NCBI GenBank assembly: GCA_900316475.1
Contig: ONDA01000032.1
Coordinates: forward strand, 1-64,000
Origin: an uncultured Prevotellaceae bacterium
GTDB lineage: Bacteria; Bacteroidota; Bacteroidia; Bacteroidales; Bacteroidaceae
Direction of reading: 5' to 3'
DNA: 64,000 nt
Shown here piece by piece: positions 2,874-13,383 of this stretch. Each line of letters begins with the position of its first letter. Position 1 is the first letter of the stretch. Made by a program: the position numbers and the translations under genes. Under the pieces are notes generated by a model. That model ran no database searches. It was not told the DNA's origin and worked only from the letters and a program-made list of their open reading frames with translations.

Positions 2874-3017
2874 TTAACGGATGTCGTCTGCGTTGAAACC
2901 GTCTGGAGTATATCCTTCATATTCAAGGTCTAAATTCGACTGAATGCTTGTGCAGAGCATCTGTGACTGCTGTATGCGAACCACCTGCGCGGTGGGGGCT
3001 AAATAAGTTTTCTTCAT
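2874..3017 (-). CDS. 47-residue peptide, family of short MKK-Y-P-VV-IQ proteins
   Basis: An ATG at 3017 opens 47 codons to a TAA at 2874-2876. The start is MKKTYLAPTAQVVRIQQSQM and the C-terminal half is acidic (LDLEYEGYTPDGF). It has no hydrophobic signal. It lies 46 nt behind the stop of the 387-residue secreted protein and before that operon's terminator. A second member of the same type occupies 5085-5219 in the same relation to another secreted protein. Shared features are M(K/R)KxY..P, VVxIQxQ, a Leu-rich spot and QSN. Comparable short proteins are common in Prevotella genomes to my knowledge. No function is known to me. Confidence 0.7.
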   Translation of the reverse strand: MKKTYLAPTAQVVRIQQSQMLCTSIQSNLDLEYEGYTPDGFNADDIR

Positions 3018-3063: not shown

Positions 3064-4227
3064 TTACCGCTTGTCTCCGACAAGAACTTTCTTTCCATTC
3101 ACGATGTTAATGCCCTTCTGCGGAGCACTGAGGCGCTGGCCGCTGAGGTTGAAGATGCCTTCCACACCACTACCACGGTTGCCGTCCACCGTGATACCAT
3201 CGATGTAGGTGGTCTGCTGGTCGCCATCGCCGAAGTCCAGCACGAACTCGCGGGCTGAAGCTATATCGAAAGTATGTGAGAAGTAAGCGCGTGTGGGATA
3301 GACCCAAACATTCTTGTTGGGCTTATAGAGCTTGTTCTCGCTACCGAACACAAGGGCATTGCTGCCCGATGTCAGCTGAACCGGACCAATCTGCGCCTCG
3401 AAACGAAGACCATTGGACTCTGTTTCGTAACAGTTGTATTCATCGTCTAAGTCTTCTTGACTTATACTTTCTACTTCAACATTCGTGAAGCTGGGGTTCA
3501 CGATGGTCTCGCCAGTGGCTGTTTCGGGCGTCCCCCAGCGGATGATGTAGGGCACACCGGCTACGATCTCACCTGATTCTGAGAAGTTGATGGTCAGCTT
3601 CTGATTTCCGCCGTCCCACGATGCACTCTCGAACAGGCGGATATCGGCACCGGCAAGACAGGTGGTGGCCAGCTTCTCGGACGAGAGGCTGAACGGCAAC
3701 GTCAGCGTGTTCCAGTAGCCGTCCTTGTAGAGCTTGCGGTTCTTCAGGTTGACAACTGCATACTTGTCAGGAGTAAAAGATGTCAAAGTAGATTCTGTCT
3801 GGGATCTACAGTCTATCTGACAACCAATATAGACGGTGGTGAACTCAAGGTCGCCATAAATATTGCTGAGATTTACCTCTGTACCGGGCTCATAGATGTC
3901 GCCATTGGGCCCTGCACAATGGCTCGTGGTCTCGCCGAAGGCGCGGCCATACTTGCTCAGCATCCACTTGTAGCCTTTGCCATCTGTTGAAGTGATTGTA
4001 GGCAACGTAATCTTCGCACCACTGCCAAAGGTGTAGGTATCGCTGGTCTTTGAGAGATTCATGCCGTCGGGGGCGTAGTAAGTGATAGTATATGTACCTC
4101 CAGGATTGGCACTTTCAGGTGTACTTGTCTGCACCGGTCCCCAGTTGTCACCGCCGGAGCCCTGTGCCCATGCGCCCGTCACTGCCATGAGCAGGAGGGC
4201 AAGGATTGAAATGTTTTTTTGTTTCAT
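3064..4227 (-). CDS. Secreted protein with C-terminal sorting-type tail
   Basis: 387 residues. The signal peptide is MKQKNISILALLLMAVTGAWAQ, with cleavage expected after AWAQ. The mature part begins with a Gly/Ser/Asn-rich stretch and continues as a beta-rich region (about 45-330) without recognisable catalytic motifs. The last ~35 residues contain IFNLSGQRLSAPQKGINIV and GKKVLVGDKR. This is the typical Prevotella C-terminal tail, thought to serve export or surface anchoring (type IX-like). It is followed by the 47-residue peptide gene. A good promoter was not recognised. A hairpin at 4291-4322 (CTGCTAC...GTAGCAG) lies in its leader. Its function is unknown. Confidence 0.8.
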   Translation of the reverse strand: MKQKNISILALLLMAVTGAWAQGSGGDNWGPVQTSTPESANPGGTYTITYYAPDGMNLSKTSDTYTFGSGAKITLPTITSTDGKGYKWMLSKYGRAFGETTSHCAGPNGDIYEPGTEVNLSNIYGDLEFTTVYIGCQIDCRSQTESTLTSFTPDKYAVVNLKNRKLYKDGYWNTLTLPFSLSSEKLATTCLAGADIRLFESASWDGGNQKLTINFSESGEIVAGVPYIIRWGTPETATGETIVNPSFTNVEVESISQEDLDDEYNCYETESNGLRFEAQIGPVQLTSGSNALVFGSENKLYKPNKNVWVYPTRAYFSHTFDIASAREFVLDFGDGDQQTTYIDGITVDGNRGSGVEGIFNLSGQRLSAPQKGINIVNGKKVLVGDKR

Positions 4228-5084: not shown

Positions 5085-5219
5085 TTATTGTCCGCCTCCA
5101 GAATCCCAGCTGTCGGTCTCATCGACGAAGTTGCTCTGAACGGGGCTGCCAGCAAGCAGTCGGTTCTGATGTTGTATTTGTACCACGCACATGGCGGGTT
5201 TCTCATATTGTTTCCTCAT
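5085..5219 (-). CDS. 44-residue peptide, same short family as 2874-3017
   Basis: An ATG at 5219, only 6 nt behind the stop of the 1111-residue surface protein, opens 44 codons. The start is [20 protein letters not shown] and the end DSWDSGGGQ. It shares with the 47-residue peptide the M(K/R)KxY..P start, VVxIQxQ and a QSN before an acidic tail. The tight spacing suggests translational coupling. It has no signal peptide. Its function is unknown. The repeated position behind large secreted proteins is the main clue. Confidence 0.7.
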
Positions 5220-5225
5220 AGCTTT

Positions 5226-8200
5226 TTACTTTTTTATCTTTTTACCTTTATAGATATACACTCCACTTTGGGGCTTGCCGGGCAGCAGACGGCCGTTGAG
5301 GTCGAAGTAGCGCTCCGTGCCATCAGCGTCGATGGTCCGGATTTGCTGGATGTCAGTAGCCTCGCCGTTGTCTTCAAACACCATGCTGAGCATGCGTGTT
5401 GCAGAAGCACTGGCGGCCTGGAAGTAAGCACGGAAGGGACCGATGTATGCCTTCGGCTGGTTGTTAAGCACCTTGTGCCAGTTGCCGTCGCTCTGCAGGA
5501 TGTAGGTGGGATAGGTAGCATTGTAGAGCGAGCTGTTGGGCATGGTTGTCGTAGTGCCTTTCAGGGCATAGTCGCCCACAGTCCATGAGCCGCCAGTGTC
5601 GGTGCTGACCGTCACCTCTGCATCGGTGCTCAGGTCAACACCGCTACTTCCGCTTACCACGATGTAGTAGGGTTTATATGCCTCGATTGCGTTATTCTCC
5701 ACCTGCTCGAAGGTGATGGTGGTCACACCCGCCTCGACGCTGGTTTCTGCAGGCTTATATACCTTTGCGTTCTCATTGCTGAGTGTCAGGGCGTAAGGCA
5801 GGTAGCAGGTGTAACCCGCTGCGGCGTATTCGTAGTGACCCTCCAGTTGGGTTGTCTCCTTTCCCTCAATGGTAATACTCTCGCCGGTGTCCTCTGTTAT
5901 TTCCACCATATCGGGTTTAAGCATACGGCTGTAGGAGACACCGTTCGTCGCCGTGATGAGCGACACCTTCGGATTGAAGTCCCATTTGTCGTTCAGCATA
6001 ATCTGGTTGGCTGTACCGCCGATAACGGCATTGGGCTCGCCGGAAGCAGCACTGTTCCCTGAAGGCAGATAGACCATCGTATATCCGCTCATGCCATAGA
6101 AGGGACTGTTGGCATCGTTGCGGTCAACGGTCACTGTTGTATCTGTATATCCAGAACTGCTTTCATCCTTAAACCCATCGACATTGCGCATGTCCACATA
6201 GCGGAGATTATAGTCCCCGTCAAAGAGGGCATCGTTCAATACGATATGCTTGTTAGGGGCAGTGATGCTGGTCAGTTTCTCGCAAGTAGCAAAGCTGTAT
6301 GGGAACAAGGTGATGTAACTACACTCTAAATCGGGAATCGTGTAGTCACCCTCCTTACCCGGTGCGCATGCAATAATATAACCATAGTACGTTTCTTTAC
6401 GCTTAATTTTATGTGTCAGCACATTATCCACACAGCTGTAGCCGTTGTCGTTGCCGCGCGATGCCGTCAGCGTGGTCATGCTGGGGCAGTAGGCGAGGAA
6501 GTTGCCCTCATGGTTCTCGAAGCCTGTACCGATGTTAAAACTCGTCAGGTTGTCGCAGCCTCGGAAGGCATCTCTGCCCACAAAGGTCACGGCATCGGGC
6601 AAATCGACGCTGGTCAGCGCATCGCAGTCGTAGAAAGCTTTGGCGTTGATGGTTGTCACGCCAGTGCCGAAGTTGACCGTAGTCAGGGCGTCGCAGTTCT
6701 CGAAGGCGCTCGCTCCGATGGTTGTCACATTATCACCGATGGTGACCGATGTCATCGTGGTGTTGTCCTTGAACACTTCAGGAAGGATGGCTGTGACGTT
6801 CTTACCGTCGTAGGTATCGGGGACAGTGACTGATGTGGCGCTACCTGTATAGGCCACCACCTCGTATTCAGAATCAGCGGCTTTTGCCGGACGATAAACG
6901 AAATCGCCGTCAACCTTATCTACGCAATTGGCAAGATACATGTCCTTCAACGTAGCAGGTATGGGGTAGTCGATGTAGTTGTCGGTGAAATAGTACCAGT
7001 TGTCCTCGCCCAAAACACTCTTGGTCTTGTCCTGGTTCATGTCTGATCGGTCTGTATAACCCTGGTTATCAGTTAAAGTATTATTACTATCTGCTTGAGG
7101 CTGTCCTATCAACAATCTTCCTATATCCAAATATGCACAGTTCTTGATAGTGCTTGTCGTCACATTGTTTGTGCCTCCCACGATGATGCCAGGAAATGTT
7201 GATGGGCTTCCTGTATAGCTAACAGTGTTTCTCGCAAAACAGCGCTCAATGGTGACATAACCGGCGCCACCAACAATGCCGCCAGTGAAAGGCATCTTTT
7301 CAACATATATATTTTTCGTATTCTGTACAAAGTCGGAAGCTGAGCAGTCGGTGATGGTCACGTTAGTGTTTACATTACCGATGATACCGCCTGTCCAACC
7401 AGTTCCCTTTACCCATCCATTGAACAGACAGCGCTCAATGGTGGCATTATTAGCACGACCTACGATACCGCCAACACTACCATTCGTTGCCTTGGCCGTA
7501 TAGCCATCGTTACCGGAGCAATTACTGGTGACCAGTATGTCAGTGATATGGCTATCTTCATCAACATACCCAACCACAGTGCCAACATAGTCAGGACCGG
7601 ACACCGTGGGATTCAGCAGATGCATGTTGTAGATGGTGGCTTTGATGGCATACCCGAACAGACCGTTGTAGTTTGAGCTTCCACTAACATTTAAGTTCTT
7701 GATGACATGGCCACCACCATCGAAGATGCCATCGAAAGGATGTACCGAAGTGCCGATAGGTGTCCAGTTATCAATGCTTGACAGGTCGAGGTCTGTCGTC
7801 AGTGTCACCATCTTGTTGTTGCTGCCTTTATACTTGTTGCCACTGTTCACGGCATCGCGGAAGTCCTCCAAGTCTTGTAGCGATGTAATCTCCTGCGGCT
7901 CGTCGTTCATCTCGTAGATACGTGCAAAGGCTTCCTGCCAGCCTACCTTCTCGTTGGCTCCCGTCAGGGTGCCAGAAGAAGTTCCGTCGAACTTGGTATC
8001 GTTATAGCTGGCAAGTTTGTCTTTAGGAACATAGAGGATGCGCTTCTGCGCCATTTCCTCCATGCTGGCCTTCGTGCCCAGCACGGAGAACACGTCGTTC
8101 CAATCCCAGGTGGGGGCCGTTGTCCCCTTACAAAGGAAAGTCTTCAAACTGCTGAGGTTGCAGAAGGCTCCGGCTCCGATGGTCTGCAGCGAGGCGGGCA

Positions 8201-8561
8201 GCACAATGCTGACCACCGACGAACAGCCAACGAAGGCATAGTTGTCAATCTGCTCTACCCCCTCCCCAATGGTGATACTGGTGAACTTGTCGCACAAACG
8301 GAAGGCAAACTGGCCTACAACGACCTTGTAGGTCTCCTCTTTATAGGTTACCGTTCCAGGAATGTAGAGTGCTCCCGTCTCGTATTGGTTGATACAGGCG
8401 TTGTAGCCATTGCCCAAAGTGGCGGTCTTTGCCTCCGTGTCGTAGATACAGACAGCCTCTATAGCTGGTGCTCCCAGCGTCAGCGTTCCCTGCATCTTCG
8501 CGGCAAAGGCCATTGCCGGCAGCAGGGCTGCTATGATAATAGGAAAAATATATCTTTTCAT
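5226..8561 (-). CDS. BspA-like leucine-rich-repeat and GLUG surface protein
   Basis: 1111 residues. The signal peptide is MKRYIFPIIIAALLPAMAFA. Residues about 60-150 form LRR_5/BspA-type repeats (SITIGEGVEQIDNYAFVGCS, then SIVLPASLQTIGAGAF). About 225-470 carry GLUG-type motifs (NGLFGYAIKATIYNMHLLN, VGGIVGRANNATIERCLF). About 570-800 are a second LRR_5 array (SVTIGDNVTTIGASAFENCD). The last ~35 residues (YFDLNGRLLPGKPQSGVYIY, GKKIKK) are the sorting-type tail. Such proteins are surface adhesins or binding proteins in oral and gut Bacteroidales. The gene is third in an operon after two secreted alpha/beta hydrolases and is followed at once by the 44-residue peptide. No enzyme motif is seen. 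Confidence 0.9.
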   Translation of the reverse strand: MKRYIFPIIIAALLPAMAFAAKMQGTLTLGAPAIEAVCIYDTEAKTATLGNGYNACINQYETGALYIPGTVTYKEETYKVVVGQFAFRLCDKFTSITIGEGVEQIDNYAFVGCSSVVSIVLPASLQTIGAGAFCNLSSLKTFLCKGTTAPTWDWNDVFSVLGTKASMEEMAQKRILYVPKDKLASYNDTKFDGTSSGTLTGANEKVGWQEAFARIYEMNDEPQEITSLQDLEDFRDAVNSGNKYKGSNNKMVTLTTDLDLSSIDNWTPIGTSVHPFDGIFDGGGHVIKNLNVSGSSNYNGLFGYAIKATIYNMHLLNPTVSGPDYVGTVVGYVDEDSHITDILVTSNCSGNDGYTAKATNGSVGGIVGRANNATIERCLFNGWVKGTGWTGGIIGNVNTNVTITDCSASDFVQNTKNIYVEKMPFTGGIVGGAGYVTIERCFARNTVSYTGSPSTFPGIIVGGTNNVTTSTIKNCAYLDIGRLLIGQPQADSNNTLTDNQGYTDRSDMNQDKTKSVLGEDNWYYFTDNYIDYPIPATLKDMYLANCVDKVDGDFVYRPAKAADSEYEVVAYTGSATSVTVPDTYDGKNVTAILPEVFKDNTTMTSVTIGDNVTTIGASAFENCDALTTVNFGTGVTTINAKAFYDCDALTSVDLPDAVTFVGRDAFRGCDNLTSFNIGTGFENHEGNFLAYCPSMTTLTASRGNDNGYSCVDNVLTHKIKRKETYYGYIIACAPGKEGDYTIPDLECSYITLFPYSFATCEKLTSITAPNKHIVLNDALFDGDYNLRYVDMRNVDGFKDESSSGYTDTTVTVDRNDANSPFYGMSGYTMVYLPSGNSAASGEPNAVIGGTANQIMLNDKWDFNPKVSLITATNGVSYSRMLKPDMVEITEDTGESITIEGKETTQLEGHYEYAAAGYTCYLPYALTLSNENAKVYKPAETSVEAGVTTITFEQVENNAIEAYKPYYIVVSGSSGVDLSTDAEVTVSTDTGGSWTVGDYALKGTTTTMPNSSLYNATYPTYILQSDGNWHKVLNNQPKAYIGPFRAYFQAASASATRMLSMVFEDNGEATDIQQIRTIDADGTERYFDLNGRLLPGKPQSGVYIYKGKKIKK

Positions 8562-8588: not shown

Positions 8589-10430
8589 TTAGTCTGTCTT
8601 TTTCTTCAGCACCCACTTGAACAAAGCGTAGTCGGGCGAGGTGCCCAAGACTTTGCCTAACATAAAGAAGTCCTTACCGGCACCCACGTGGTCATCCGAA
8701 CTATTGGTGTCGTTGATATAGACATCCGCTTTATCTGGGCTTCCAACCGACCACAAAGGATAGGCACCTGCTTGTGACAACCGATAAGAAGAAGTCTCGG
8801 TAATGATATAGTCCGTTTCTGGTTGGATGTAATAGTACAAATATGGCTGATTTTTGACAAACGAACACAGATTGACAAAAGGCACCACAGTGTCGTAAGA
8901 AGAGTGATAGAAGGCCACGCGGTGCTTAGGTGTCCAGCCTACGGTGAGGTTGTTGCTCTCCAAGGCTCGGTGCAGGTCCTGCATGAAGCCGCGACCAGTG
9001 GGAGTCACGCGATTGCCATCGGCATCTTCGAAATTCGATTTAGTTGTGAAATAGGTGTAGCAATCAGGGGTCAACATCTCACTAAGCTTACCATAAGCTG
9101 CGAAAGAACCAATGTTCAAAAAGGGAGTTGACGTATAGTAGAATATATCACCCATCTGTGCGGCTGTGAAGCTGCCACCTACAGCCGCATTACCGCCGTA
9201 TGGTCTGGGAAGCGTGAAGGCGCGGGTGACACCATGTTTGCTTTGCCACACATAGCGTTTTGTGACGTCGTCGGTGCTGAACTGGTCAGCCTTATTGGGG
9301 TTTTTCTTGGCCTCAATCATCTGTAGGGAGCCTGTTGCCAGAAATTTATCGGATAGATACTCGTCGATTGAATGCTGGCGCATCAGCGGGTTGCTGTCGC
9401 ACATACCTTTCAGAATAAGTGGCATCACGATTGGCATCGACACGGTACCGGCTTCGTGCTTCGTCTTTTTACTACCATCATAAGTTTCACCGTTGTCCGT
9501 GATGTAATAGCGCAGATGGGCCACCGGGTCGTAGGGACCGTCGCCACATACGGAGCCGGCATAGTGAAGGTCGGTGTCCAGTCCGTTCTGTTCGATGAAC
9601 TTATGTACGGCCAGTGCCACGCTGCCGCCCTGCGAGTAGCCGAGGCTGACGCTTTGCCAGTTACTCTCTAATGGGTCAAAGTTCTTGCCCGTGCCAATAT
9701 TAGCATTGTAGAATGCCAGTCCGTAGCGCACGGCATCGACCACCTGACGAGCGGTGAGTTCCTGATAGAGATAGGGATGTGCACGGTCGGCAGTGATGCC
9801 ATAGCCCTCGTAGTCGGGCATGATGACCAGACAGCACGGCTGGCGAGTACGATCGTAGCGGGTGTACATCAGCATCATGCCGACACCCGTTTTCCAATCG
9901 CCGCCATTATCACCATTATTATAACTGGTGGGGCATTCCCAGTTGCTCGTGATGGTCTCGTGGCAGGCTATGAGCACATTGCTCGGTGCGGCAAATCCCA
10001 TATTCAACTGCCAGCGCGGCACACCCATCAACGCGGAAAGAATGACCTTGTTGCCGTCGGCATCTACCGAAGGGTATTTATAGGTATAGAGATAGGCACC
10101 AGAACCGATTACCTGCTTGCCTGCATCCGTCAGACCTCCGTATAGGTCTTTGTCGCTGGTGCTGGGCGAACGGCGTGGCGCACGAGCCTGCTCTGTGGCC
10201 TCGTCTATCGGTTTAATTGACGTAATGCCCTCGTCGATGATGAGGGTGTCGGCCCGCCCCGTAACGGGGTCAATCACAATACTATCGCGACTGCTGAATT
10301 CGATCTCGCTGACAGACATAATCTCCACGTCGTTCACATTAACCTCGGGGAGATTGCCCAAAGCACTCTGTGCCCACGTGCCCAACGCCATGAAAGGCAG
10401 GGCTACGATTAAGAATCTTTTCTTCTTCAT
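8589..10430 (-). CDS. Secreted alpha/beta hydrolase (lipase/esterase-like)
   Basis: 613 residues. The signal peptide is MKKKRFLIVALPFMALGTWAQ. The catalytic domain spans about residues 125-600. A nucleophile elbow GYSQGG lies near 264-269, so Ser is the likely nucleophile. Preceding features, such as MPDYEGYGITADRAHPYLYQ, resemble secretory lipase and prolyl-oligopeptidase-like alpha/beta hydrolases. Acid and His candidates lie in the C-terminal third (YHSSYDTVVPF, SSDDHVGAGKDFF). There is no sorting tail, so it is probably periplasmic or released. It starts 26 nt behind the stop of the lipoprotein hydrolase. The substrate is unknown. Confidence 0.85.
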   Translation of the reverse strand: MKKKRFLIVALPFMALGTWAQSALGNLPEVNVNDVEIMSVSEIEFSSRDSIVIDPVTGRADTLIIDEGITSIKPIDEATEQARAPRRSPSTSDKDLYGGLTDAGKQVIGSGAYLYTYKYPSVDADGNKVILSALMGVPRWQLNMGFAAPSNVLIACHETITSNWECPTSYNNGDNGGDWKTGVGMMLMYTRYDRTRQPCCLVIMPDYEGYGITADRAHPYLYQELTARQVVDAVRYGLAFYNANIGTGKNFDPLESNWQSVSLGYSQGGSVALAVHKFIEQNGLDTDLHYAGSVCGDGPYDPVAHLRYYITDNGETYDGSKKTKHEAGTVSMPIVMPLILKGMCDSNPLMRQHSIDEYLSDKFLATGSLQMIEAKKNPNKADQFSTDDVTKRYVWQSKHGVTRAFTLPRPYGGNAAVGGSFTAAQMGDIFYYTSTPFLNIGSFAAYGKLSEMLTPDCYTYFTTKSNFEDADGNRVTPTGRGFMQDLHRALESNNLTVGWTPKHRVAFYHSSYDTVVPFVNLCSFVKNQPYLYYYIQPETDYIITETSSYRLSQAGAYPLWSVGSPDKADVYINDTNSSDDHVGAGKDFFMLGKVLGTSPDYALFKWVLKKKTD

Positions 10431-10456: not shown

Positions 10457-11812
10457 TTACAGTGAAATACCCGAGAAGTCGTGTATCTTGTCCTTGATAT
10501 ACTCCGTAGCTTTGTCGATGACATCCTGCTGCAGCTGCTGCCTGACATCGTCTGTGCCGGGCATGAAATCCTCCATCTGGATCATGGTGGCACCGATATG
10601 CTGGAAGAGGCCGTAGTCCACGTGGTTGCCCCAGTCGCCAAACTCGGTCTTGACAGTGCAGCCGTGGGCCGTCAGGTAGTCAGCCATTTCCTGACCCACG
10701 TGCCAGTCCATATATTTGTCGCCTGAGGAGTGCATGATGTAGTAGCGCGTCTTGGTATTGGGCTGCCACGTCTGTCCCTCGCCACAGAGGGAGTTCTCGC
10801 GGAACTTCTTGGCGAGCTTCTGGCCGAGGGCTGAGTTGGCATCGAGGGCGGCAGGGGTGAGAATCATGTTGACAGGACAGTCCTTAGCCAGTTTCTCATC
10901 GCCACCGGCAATGAGCTTGTTGATGTCCCACGTACCATAGTCCTTAGAAAGTATCCACTTCTGGATGTTGCTGGCCAGAGGTTCCACAAAAACGTCTTTA
11001 TAGTCGAAGTCCATGTGGTATGTCTCTTTGTAGGCCACCACGACGAGGGGGAAGGAGCAGGCATAACCCGAGGTCTTGGATTCGATGTTGCTCTTATAGA
11101 CGGAATAGATGCTGAAAGGGGCGGCACCTGCCGAGGTGAGCTTCCAGTCAAGGTCGCTACGCCCTTTGGCACGAAGCTCGTCGGAATAGCGCTGCACGGC
11201 AAGTGCCGAGAAACCGCCGCTGCTGTAGCCCACATTGAAGGTGGGCAGACCGCTGATGGCATAGCCCTCGTCTTTCAGAATCTGCATGGCGGCATCCCAA
11301 GCATCGATGGTCTCAACGCTGGTAATCTCAGGACAGCAGTAGGCCTGCGGCTTGTCCTCGGTGAGCGTCCAGCCGTAGAGGTCGGCCGAGACGGCGATGA
11401 GGTTCTGGTACTTGTTCATGTAGAGCCCCATGTCGTCAATCTCTTCCTGTGACGTGCGCTCACGGTGCTTGGCACAGGTGAACTCGTTGTAAAGCATCAG
11501 ACCACGTGGAGCCACCTTTTTATTATATACGGCGGGATTCATTGAAATGACGCCTGTCAGTCGCACAGGTGTCTTCATGTCGGGACCGAGACTGGTATAT
11601 TCAAAGACTATTTGCCTGAACTTCAGATTCAGCGCATCGTGAGCAACCTTCTCCAGCGCATGGCACTCTCGGCGTTCCGTCACCTTCTGGTCTATCTGGT
11701 AGGTCTCACCATCGGGTGCCGATGGATTGTCGTCGCTGGAACAACTCATCATCAAGTGACTGCAAAGCAGGACGGCGGCAAGCACCCATTTCGATTTGTT
11801 TATTATATCCAT
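10457..11812 (-). CDS. Lipoprotein alpha/beta hydrolase
   Basis: 451 residues. The N-terminus MDIINKSKWVLAAVLLCSHL runs into MMSCSSDD, a lipoprotein signal with the acylated Cys at about 24, so it is membrane-anchored and possibly surface-exposed. The fold is the same as in the next gene, with nucleophile elbow GYSSGG near 196-201. A C-terminal GDKYMDWHVGQEM and GNHVDYG could supply acid and His. The two hydrolases are distant paralogues, one anchored and one soluble. It is the first gene of the operon. Its promoter (11837-11844) lies 50 bp from a two-half-site motif (11894-11922) that is also found before the araC gene. Confidence 0.85.
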   Translation of the reverse strand: MDIINKSKWVLAAVLLCSHLMMSCSSDDNPSAPDGETYQIDQKVTERRECHALEKVAHDALNLKFRQIVFEYTSLGPDMKTPVRLTGVISMNPAVYNKKVAPRGLMLYNEFTCAKHRERTSQEEIDDMGLYMNKYQNLIAVSADLYGWTLTEDKPQAYCCPEITSVETIDAWDAAMQILKDEGYAISGLPTFNVGYSSGGFSALAVQRYSDELRAKGRSDLDWKLTSAGAAPFSIYSVYKSNIESKTSGYACSFPLVVVAYKETYHMDFDYKDVFVEPLASNIQKWILSKDYGTWDINKLIAGGDEKLAKDCPVNMILTPAALDANSALGQKLAKKFRENSLCGEGQTWQPNTKTRYYIMHSSGDKYMDWHVGQEMADYLTAHGCTVKTEFGDWGNHVDYGLFQHIGATMIQMEDFMPGTDDVRQQLQQDVIDKATEYIKDKIHDFSGISL

Positions 11813-11836: not shown

Positions 11837-11844
11837 CAAAGTTA
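11837..11844 (-). promoter_or_regulatory. Promoter (-7 box) of the hydrolase/BspA operon
   Basis: Minus strand TAACTTTG, 25 nt upstream of the ATG at 11812. Its sequence is identical to the -7 box of the araC gene (13298-13305). Confidence 0.75.
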
Positions 11845-11893
11845 GGGTTTTTCTTTATAATTGCATCATAATTCCTCAGTTTAACGCAAAGTC

Positions 11894-11922
11894 GTTGTCC
11901 CCAAGCGGGGATTGTGTTCCCA
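11894..11922 (-). promoter_or_regulatory. Candidate regulator binding site A
   Basis: Plus-strand reading is GTTGTCCC, nine bases, ATT, one base, TGTTCCCA. The upstream edge of the operon -7 box is exactly 50 bp away. Site B (13355-13383) has the same half-sites, internal spacing, orientation and distance to an identical -7 box. The half-sites are about two helical turns apart, as in AraC-family direct-repeat operators. Confidence 0.65.
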
Positions 11923-11993
11923 AAATTGGATTTCACAGACTGCGTATCAGTGATTTTTTCCTTAAAATGGCAAAAAAAAAGAAAATATGTTTG

Positions 11994-12001
11994 TACCTTT
12001 G
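11994..12001 (+). promoter_or_regulatory. Promoter (-7 box) of the small membrane protein gene
   Basis: TACCTTTG followed by CATCC, 27 nt upstream of the ATG at 12029. It is divergent from the hydrolase operon promoter and shares its intergenic region. Confidence 0.7.
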
Positions 12002-12028
12002 CATCCAGTTTAATCAAAGCATGTAATA

Positions 12029-12592
12029 ATGGAATATCAGAAAATAAGCAAAGAGCCTCGCAGGTCACTTATTATTAATAAGGTGGAGAGCGGAATGCCC
12101 CGCTGGCTGATAGAGGTGGGATTTGTCATGATGGCGATCCAGGCCGTCAGCACCGCGTGTGACATCAGCAACTGGATAGAGACGAACGGCATGGTGATTC
12201 CCCGCTCCATCGTCTTCCTGCTGGGCGACATCATCCTGTACTATGCAATGATGCGTGGCATGAAGCCTCTGCGACATCCCTATACGTGGATGTGGTGGCT
12301 GCTGATCGTGCTCAACGTGGCTGGCGACCTAACCTACATATTACCCGAATCCATCCTCAACCTGGCAGTGGCCGTAGCACAGCCGCTGGCCTACCTGCCG
12401 TTAGGTATCTCCATCGGCTACTTCTATCGTGGCCGTCTGCAGTGGGTGGGCATACTGATGGTGGCTTTCATGGTAACGATGATTATCCTCCCCATCATGC
12501 TCATCGACTTCATACCCTACATATTTACCGATGCCCTGGCTATCGTCACGCAGACAGCACTGGCCTGGACAATGCGCAAGATGCTTATTTAA
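12029..12592 (+). CDS. Uncharacterised polytopic membrane protein
   Basis: 187 residues with five or six predicted membrane segments at about 27-45, 58-75, 86-105, 110-132, 137-160 and 164-180. A basic N-terminal stretch (EPRRSLIINK) suggests a cytosolic N-terminus. There are no enzyme motifs and I recognise no family. It is transcribed away from the hydrolase operon across the region with site A. Its 3' end overlaps the convergent araC gene by 8 bp, an arrangement that invites antisense effects. A link to the regulator or hydrolases is inferred only from position. Confidence 0.75.
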   Translation: MEYQKISKEPRRSLIINKVESGMPRWLIEVGFVMMAIQAVSTACDISNWIETNGMVIPRSIVFLLGDIILYYAMMRGMKPLRHPYTWMWWLLIVLNVAGDLTYILPESILNLAVAVAQPLAYLPLGISIGYFYRGRLQWVGILMVAFMVTMIILPIMLIDFIPYIFTDALAIVTQTALAWTMRKMLI

Positions 12593-13289
12593 TCCGTACC
12601 ACGTCGTTGAAACTGTTTTGCCGGTATTGGGCGGGGGTAATACCAATACGCTTCTTGAACTCCGTCTGGAACGTAGAGCGCGACACGAAGCCGGCTTCTT
12701 TGCCGATGGCTTCCATCGAGTACTGCGGATTCTGCTTGATAAGTTCACAGGAATAGAGCACGCGCTTCTCCGTAAGATAGTCGTAGAGACGATCGTAACG
12801 CTGGGAGTCTTTCAGCAATTGCTTGATTTTCTTCTGTGTCAGTCCTAACCGCTGCGCCATGCCTTTCAGGTTGAGGTCAGGGTCGGTGAAGATATGGCTT
12901 TCAGTCATCTGCAGGTCCATCCATGTCCAAAGTTCCTCATCAGTCAGGGTTTTGATGTCGTTGATGTTCTCACGCAGCGATTCTGTCTCCTCTTTCAGTT
13001 CTGTCACCTTGCCATTGCCCATCAACCGTTCCTTCAGTTCGGTCAGCGTCTTTTGCTGCTCCTCGCTCTCCTCTCTCAGCGTGTGAAGCGTTTTTGCCTG
13101 CAAACTATATTGTTCCTGCAGTTTCTCTTGTTTTTTCTTCTGACTTTCCACCTCGTCTGCCAGCTGACTGTTTTCCCGCATCACCCTGTTGGTCTGTCTA
13201 TACGTCAACAAAATACTGATAGCACCAGCTACCAGAAAGGCAAAAAACACAGCTGTAATCAATAGCGCACTTCCTGTCATAAATCGCAA
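12585..13289 (-). CDS. Membrane-anchored AraC-type transcriptional regulator
   Basis: 234 residues. One transmembrane helix (about 6-28, ALLITAVFFAFLVAGAISIL) is followed by a long coiled coil (about 33-110, Glu/Lys/Gln-rich). A C-terminal AraC DNA-binding domain (about 125-232) has two helix-turn-helix units, LNLKGMAQRLGLTQKKIKQL and SMEAIGKEAGFVSRSTFQTE, then FKKRIGITPAQYR. No periplasmic or ligand-binding domain of note is present. The site B motif lies 50 bp upstream of its -7 box and matches the one before the hydrolase operon. The simplest reading is autoregulation plus control of the hydrolase/BspA operon. The signal sensed is unknown. Confidence 0.88.
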   Translation of the reverse strand: MRFMTGSALLITAVFFAFLVAGAISILLTYRQTNRVMRENSQLADEVESQKKKQEKLQEQYSLQAKTLHTLREESEEQQKTLTELKERLMGNGKVTELKEETESLRENINDIKTLTDEELWTWMDLQMTESHIFTDPDLNLKGMAQRLGLTQKKIKQLLKDSQRYDRLYDYLTEKRVLYSCELIKQNPQYSMEAIGKEAGFVSRSTFQTEFKKRIGITPAQYRQNSFNDVVRIK

Positions 13290-13297
13290 TTTGACGA

Positions 13298-13305
13298 CAA
13301 AGTTA
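13298..13305 (-). promoter_or_regulatory. Promoter (-7 box) of the araC-type gene
   Basis: Minus strand TAACTTTG, 9 nt upstream of the ATG at 13289, so the leader is very short. Confidence 0.7.
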
Positions 13306-13354
13306 TCTCTATTTTCTTAAAAAGCCATTAAAAAGTGGGGAGAAAGCCGAAATT

Positions 13355-13383
13355 GTTGTCCCTTAAACATCATTCTGTTCCCA
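13355..13383 (-). promoter_or_regulatory. Candidate regulator binding site B
   Basis: Plus-strand reading is GTTGTCCC, nine bases, ATT, one base, TGTTCCCA. It is the same as site A at all half-site positions and again 50 bp from the -7 box. Confidence 0.65.

Follow-up and report, generated by a model that had tools for sequence, protein, structure and literature searches.

The window, a stretch of 64,000 nucleotides from an uncultured Prevotellaceae bacterium, appears to carry a compact regulatory module in which a membrane-tied AraC-type activator would act through paired half-sites on its own gene and on a neighbouring operon for secreted proteins, together with a conserved membrane protein partner. 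We put the probability of this reading at about 0.8. An autoregulated membrane AraC circuit over a secreted-hydrolase operon had been proposed earlier from a sequence-only reading of this DNA, and it is supported by operators that are kept in relatives, by a recognition helix that varies in step with them and by pattern searches in genomes. The features of the module are collected in Table 1.

Table 1. Predicted features of the module in the window. Distances are from the proximal half-site to the -7 box.
Feature	Position	Strand	Description and basis
Regulator gene	12585..13280	-	231 aa; about 3 residues ahead of one membrane helix, then a long coiled coil and the AraC/HTH_18 domain (Pfam, sequence, model)
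Site 1, whole operator before regulator gene	13355-13383	+ reading	GTTGTCCC-N9-ATT-N-TGTTCCCA
Site 1, distal half-site	13376..13382	-	GGGAACA; site present in 9/9 class-A loci
Site 1, proximal half-site	13357..13363	-	AGGGACA; 19 bp from distal
-7 box of regulator gene	13298..13305	-	TAACTTTG (CAAAGTTA on +); 51 bp
Partner membrane protein gene	12029..12592	+	187 aa with about six membrane helices; convergent with regulator gene, the gene ends overlapping by 8 bp
-7 box of membrane protein gene	11994..12001	+	TACCTTTG; outside the fixed operator distance
Site 2, whole operator before target operon	11894-11922	+ reading	GTTGTCCC-N9-ATT-N-TGTTCCCA
Site 2, distal half-site	11915..11921	-	GGGAACA
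Site 2, proximal half-site	11896..11902	-	GGGGACA
-7 box of target operon	11837..11844	-	TAACTTTG (CAAAGTTA on +); 51 bp
Target gene 1	10457..11812	-	451 aa; lipoprotein-like, lipase-like hydrolase family; clusters with L071 and L076 proteins
Target gene 2	8589..10430	-	613 aa; secreted hydrolase, LIP-like (LIP below cut-off)
Target gene 3	5226..8561	-	1111 aa; BspA-type LRR surface protein (LRR_5, E 1.5e-42)
Short ORF	5085..5219	-	44 residues, 6 bp behind gene 3; no Pfam family

Two promoters in the window share a direct-repeat operator

The sequence-only reading had placed two operators of identical sequence on the plus strand, one upstream of the regulator gene (site 1) and one upstream of the target operon (site 2). 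Both were found there, and the -7 boxes of the same sequence, at an equal gap from the operator in both promoters, could be read directly. We take these boxes to be of the type known from Bacteroidota promoters. The half-site spacing of 21 bp that had been given was not borne out because this register aligns non-equivalent positions; comparison with the relatives gives direct repeats with a period of 19 bp. A simple duplication of the two promoters, already dismissed earlier, was ruled out, since the spacers and flanks differ between the sites and both sites recur in relatives, being present in all nine class-A loci (the window counted).

In the own genome (3.29 Mb, 91% complete), the exact operator matches were these two only and the reversed control gave none. 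With up to two mismatches to TTGTCCC-N13-TGTTCCC, 10 matches were obtained (two exact, none with one mismatch and eight with two) and 11 in the reversed control, the excess over the control being the two exact sites only. A search with the degenerate class-A operator and box together recovered site 2 alone, site 1 being missed because it reads TGTCCCT. A larger regulon in the own genome was rejected, as no extra site was seen at 0-1 mismatch and the degenerate pattern with box gave only site 2. Within the 64-kb window, the degenerate operator with up to one mismatch matched three times versus 0.27 expected, at both sites and at 12965; this last match (12965-12990, plus strand, one mismatch) lies within the regulator reading frame and is probably due to chance. 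Separately, repeat arrays resembling GACAGGAGTACAGGAGAACA were seen at three places of the own genome, L141 (G000:C39), L142 (C47) and L143 (C57), as separate intergenic arrays in which the second half is the reverse complement.

The regulator is predicted to be a membrane-tied AraC-type protein

ATG 13280, which gives the MT- start of most relatives, is the most likely start codon of the regulator, in preference to TTG 13289. The earlier description of the protein as a membrane helix, a coiled coil and an AraC domain agrees with the present analysis, the helix and coil coming from sequence and model and the AraC domain from Pfam. The protein belongs to AraC/XylS by its matches to PF12833 (46 bits, cut-off 33.6) and PF00165 (38.6 bits, cut-off 26.6); the HTH_18 match had an E of 6.7e-12, and the SoxS structure 7w5w was matched with an E of 1.9e-9. 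A model built with 8 sequences predicted a single helix over residues 3-110 followed by the HTH domain, with a mean pLDDT of 77 and a pTM of 0.50, values at which the relative placement of the parts is untrustworthy. On the DNA side, the direct repeats of the operator were found, from sequence comparison only, to be conserved together with the gene.

Regulators at E <= 1e-25 were found in 28 of the 398 genomes of the genus, and close relatives on 7 named Prevotella contigs. A total of 36 loci was studied, consisting of the window, the 7 named Prevotella contigs and 28 loci from the genus genomes; the copies in G018 and G064 resemble L070 and L068 and were excluded.

A multi-pass membrane protein accompanies the regulator

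The model of the membrane protein (pLDDT 79, pTM 0.73) contained six helices of 17-24 residues at 25-41, 56-78, 84-102, 109-132, 136-158 and 164-186. No known family or fold was found for it, as nothing exceeded the curated cut-off when 20 members were compared with Pfam (best E 0.026) and the structure search with the model gave no match (best E 1.2). Its gene is convergent, downstream of the regulator gene and at most ~0.7 kb away in 32 of the 36 loci. As exceptions, it lies ~6.5 kb off in L093 and is divergent in L099, and the fetched stretches of L085 and L094 showed no partner, their genomes having one copy beside another regulator. Among the genus genomes, the partner profile matched 32 of 396, including all 28 with the regulator and 4 of the remaining 368 (those without a regulator at E <= 1e-25). 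In two of these extra genomes (G229, G239) a more distant regulator adjoins the partner, and in the stretches fetched around the weak or partial matches of G202 and G211 no regulator was found. In an order-wide sample of 295 genomes, with three family-mates of other genera among those listed, the partner was matched in the own genome only.

It had been suggested that the protein encoded at 12029 could belong to the circuit, and its conservation as a partner (28 of 28 regulator genomes) makes it a member of the module. Operator control of its promoter is doubtful, because the gap to its -7 box varies: it is 41-102 bp across loci (with a box in 26 of 27) and 59-72 bp within class A. With such variable spacing, the idea that the operator also governs this gene was left unsupported.

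The membrane protein might also be an output of the module, for example a protective or secretion-helper protein, the regulator alone sensing the membrane or another cue. Such a role would suit a protein of no known family or fold whose own promoter has no fixed operator spacing, as well as the L085 and L094 regulators, which have no partner in the fetched stretch while the single copy of their genomes stands beside another regulator. We consider it less likely, because the partner is kept where the downstream operon differs and shares a ~1.4 kb cassette with the regulator, of which only about three residues lie outside the membrane. Since the regulator has nearly nothing outside the membrane, the conserved six-helix partner would be the likely sensor or gate that controls it.

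The operator geometry is nearly fixed among relatives

For the operator counts, L099, where no operator was seen, was set aside, leaving 35 loci. An operator precedes the AraC gene in 28 of these and the downstream operon in 30. The period of the half-sites was 19 in 57 of the 58 sites and the gap from the proximal half-site to the box was 51-53 bp in all 58, in a search that allowed a period of 18-20, a gap of 48-55 and a loosened box. A site of fixed geometry before the regulator was absent in seven loci, namely all four of class C and class-B L085, L091 and L097 (the last without upstream DNA), and autoregulation is therefore not universal. The downstream site was absent in five (L078, L092, L093, L100 and L101), of which L078 and L101 are short of downstream DNA.

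The half-sites, with the class assigned per locus by hand, are GRGRACA-like in class A (9 loci), TGCGCA in class B (22 loci) and CTTACA in class C (4 loci, none with a site before its own regulator). A fourth type, TTTGAGCGA, has in L183 a period of 20 and a 51-bp gap, as worked out from the sequence; this operator sits between divergent regulator and membrane genes in L183 and L184, one base differing in one copy of the latter. In a repeat test, at least 8 of 9 bases were repeated at 47 of 359 -7-like boxes versus 0 of 359 with shuffled upstream DNA, the test being blind to the letters of the half-sites but its geometry having been learned from these same loci. The regulator or downstream-operon promoters of the module account for 42 of the 47 positives.

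Two other arrangements of repeats were noted. Before the downstream operon of L067 (2883-2928) there are three consecutive half-sites with spacings of 20 and 19, and in L093, where the membrane gene is far off, tandem 22-bp units of GGGAACAAATTATTCCC stand between it and the regulator (3357-3407 in regulator-strand coordinates).

The sign of control is not given by sequence alone, and the regulator could repress both promoters until a signal releases it. This seems rather improbable to us, as the proximal half-site lies 51-53 bp upstream of the -7 box, outside the promoter proper, in 58 of 58 sites, and an upstream direct repeat suits AraC-type activation better than repression. As an activator, a pair of regulator molecules held together by the coiled coil would bind the two direct-repeat half-sites 19 bp apart and recruit polymerase from upstream (~51 bp before the -7 box). 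The operator before the regulator's own gene would then provide autoregulation, and the second one would control the secreted hydrolases and the surface protein. The sequences themselves show the sites with their geometry and conservation, the parallel variation of half-site and recognition helix 2, the joint occurrence of regulator and partner, and the exchange of the downstream operon; that the regulator binds, dimerises and activates instead of repressing, and that the partner senses, we infer from them.

Operator classes vary in step with the recognition helix of the regulator

The class-A operator with its box was found in 5 of the 398 genomes, which are all the class-A regulator genomes (G000, G018, G064 and G107) and a stray one (G149). 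The class-B operator with its box was found in 24 of 398, 19 of them with the regulator; in G105, G380 and G413 it adjoins a broken or truncated regulator gene, and it is a stray in G187 and G268. The controls for both scans gave 0. The exact class-B pattern missed 3 of the 22 class-B regulator genomes (G009, G034 and G230), whose boxes or period deviate. L144, L147 and L148, in which class-B operators stand beside truncated or broken regulator genes, are decayed modules, and no partner gene was matched in these stretches.

The regulators of class A (9), class B (22) and class C (4) have different residues at positions 199, 200, 202 and 208, which lie in recognition helix 2 or close to it; a single class-B protein is an exception at residue 200. 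In the comparison with SoxS, this part of the protein is aligned with the second HTH. The regulator protein and its operators seem to have changed together, a covariation that is supporting evidence but not independent of descent, since the classes are also regulator clades. Two regulators (at 1e-25) occur in three genomes, G009, G201 and G230, and in each a class-B regulator is paired with one of class C. Avoidance of cross-talk would predict such pairs, though three cases are few. That the sites are bound by another regulator encoded elsewhere, with the neighbouring AraC gene as just one target, is very improbable: the sites are known by sequence only and the AraC query has 12 other matches in the own genome, all of them weaker, but site and box are almost confined to genomes with the regulator or its remains, half-site and recognition helix vary in step, and a global regulator would have many sites where the own genome has two exact ones.

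The downstream operons encode varied, mostly secreted proteins

In the window, target gene 1 had no Pfam match of its own, and the L076 protein in its cluster matches LIP; the relatives of target gene 2 in L086 and L089 are above the LIP cut-off. The 44-residue ORF is presumably part of the target operon. Two short ORFs on the minus strand of the window, of 47 aa (2874-3017) and 44 aa (5085-5219), have starts that are alike and are perhaps one small peptide family.

Among relatives, the content of the downstream operon varies and is mostly secreted, with peptidases, lipases and BspA-like proteins. The first ORF behind the site was secreted or lipoprotein-like in 27 of the 29 loci having both site and ORF, by a crude rule whose background is high (10 of 21 ORFs in window positions 16001-64000). 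Pfam matches among 23 cargo proteins (20 + 3) included the C10 peptidase with Spi inhibitor, S8 subtilase, C11, C13 and M15 peptidases, secretory lipase, GH3 and BspA-type LRR; no Pfam family was found for 7 of the 23, nor for two more in the L068/L074/L081 group. When 72 cargo proteins (up to three ORFs per locus) were clustered, 24 clusters were obtained, of which the three largest extend over classes A, B and C. Judged from gene content, the secreted enzymes that the module appears to switch on vary from one relative to another.

Outside the module, class-B sites were found in G065 and G197, in both cases ahead of a gene whose product begins like a secreted protein, and an outlying class-B site in G096, before a protein like the cargo of the L077 module, is probably a target of that module itself on another contig. 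A secreted family of ~258 aa recurs in L068, L072, L075, L079, L082, L083, L085, L088, L089 and L098, that is with all three operator classes; it is the first gene in 9 of the 10, one copy is shortened to 94, and the L068 member had no Pfam match. T9SS-type C-terminal tails, suspected by eye in several cargo proteins, found no support in the family search with the window protein.

Near-identical cassettes lie in different surroundings

A homologous upstream ORF was common to only one of the 378 pairs formed by the 28 loci with enough upstream DNA, and the upstream DNA of 31 loci gave short matches in two pairs. Five pairs of loci have regulators that are 95-97% identical. In all five, the DNA ceases to match 0 to 118 bp upstream of the operator that precedes the regulator, the upstream DNA at hand being 409 to 5889 bp. 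At the other end, two pairs, L067/L068 (93.9% over 1377 bp) and L070/L071 (88.5% over 1414 bp), lose the identity 58-68 bp short of the target operator; it runs past the membrane gene in L077/L078, into the cargo in L086/L090 and to the contig end in L069/L074. Thus two pairs differ on either side of the cassette and three only upstream of it. By these alignments, near-identical cassettes adjoin unrelated DNA.

In L070/L071 the cargo differs and the formate-THF ligase DNA is 77% identical. At third positions the identity of the regulator genes is 0.85 and that of the membrane genes 0.78, against 0.51 in the ligase; judged against this one housekeeping gene, the L070/L071 cassette looks horizontally exchanged. 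Exchange was not shown for L069/G107, where secDF is 92% and the cassette 91.9% identical, and therefore only a change of place is suggested. When an empty site was sought in G107, the contig was found to end inside secDF. For the L067 pair, the comparison query, taken to be parE, gave no match.

A wider reading, whose chances we put a little short of even, is that a portable cassette of ~1.4 kb, made of regulator, operator and partner, has been exchanged between Prevotella lineages and set before varied secreted-hydrolase operons. Operators and recognition helices would fall into at least four classes, which would keep a pair of cassettes in the same cell from cross-talk, and the multi-pass partner would be the sensor.

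Discussion

The regulator resembles the AraC/XylS regulators AraC, SoxS and MarA in its double helix-turn-helix and in a direct-repeat site upstream of the promoter. Unlike these, it has a membrane helix and a coiled coil and not a ligand domain, and the module has a 19-bp repeat period, a Bacteroidota -7 box and a conserved membrane partner. The hybrid two-component systems of Bacteroides are also membrane proteins with an AraC-type output that control secreted enzymes, and they unite a periplasmic sensor, a kinase and a receiver in a single polypeptide. The module differs from them in that its regulator, of 231 aa, has no large periplasmic sensor, kinase or receiver by Pfam. In TcpP and ToxR, the output domain is a winged helix and a periplasmic domain is present.

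The pair TcpP/TcpH consists of a membrane-tied transcription regulator and a second, controlling membrane protein (PMC11323476), and the module is like this and the ToxR type in having a membrane-tied regulator with a second membrane protein. As in these proteins, the membrane helix of the regulator is joined to its DNA-binding domain, by sequence and model. Unlike TcpP/TcpH, the output is AraC-type and not winged-helix, there is almost no periplasmic part (about three residues before the helix, with the topology deduced from charge), and the partner is multi-pass where TcpH is single-pass. Membrane-bound AraC regulators as such are already known: in Saccharophagus degradans, membrane AraC-type DNA-binding proteins are described near cellulose-degradation genes and were proposed as detectors of extracellular polysaccharides (PMC2386152). 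These are like the module in being AraC-type and membrane-bound, and in the part of the description compared, an operator, a partner and an exchangeable operon go unmentioned (PMC2386152). Among the open-access literature at abstract level, where part of the search was swamped by 'arachidonic' matches, no paper was recognisable as describing the module.

The loci form a natural AraC-type series, in which operator and recognition helix vary in step and the promoter geometry is nearly fixed, and this series offers a direct test of how the large AraC family reads DNA. The findings also point to a route, without description in the literature searched, by which Prevotella deploys surface proteins as well as secreted peptidases and lipases. 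They point, too, to a membrane protein family, so far uncharacterised, that may sense the signal.
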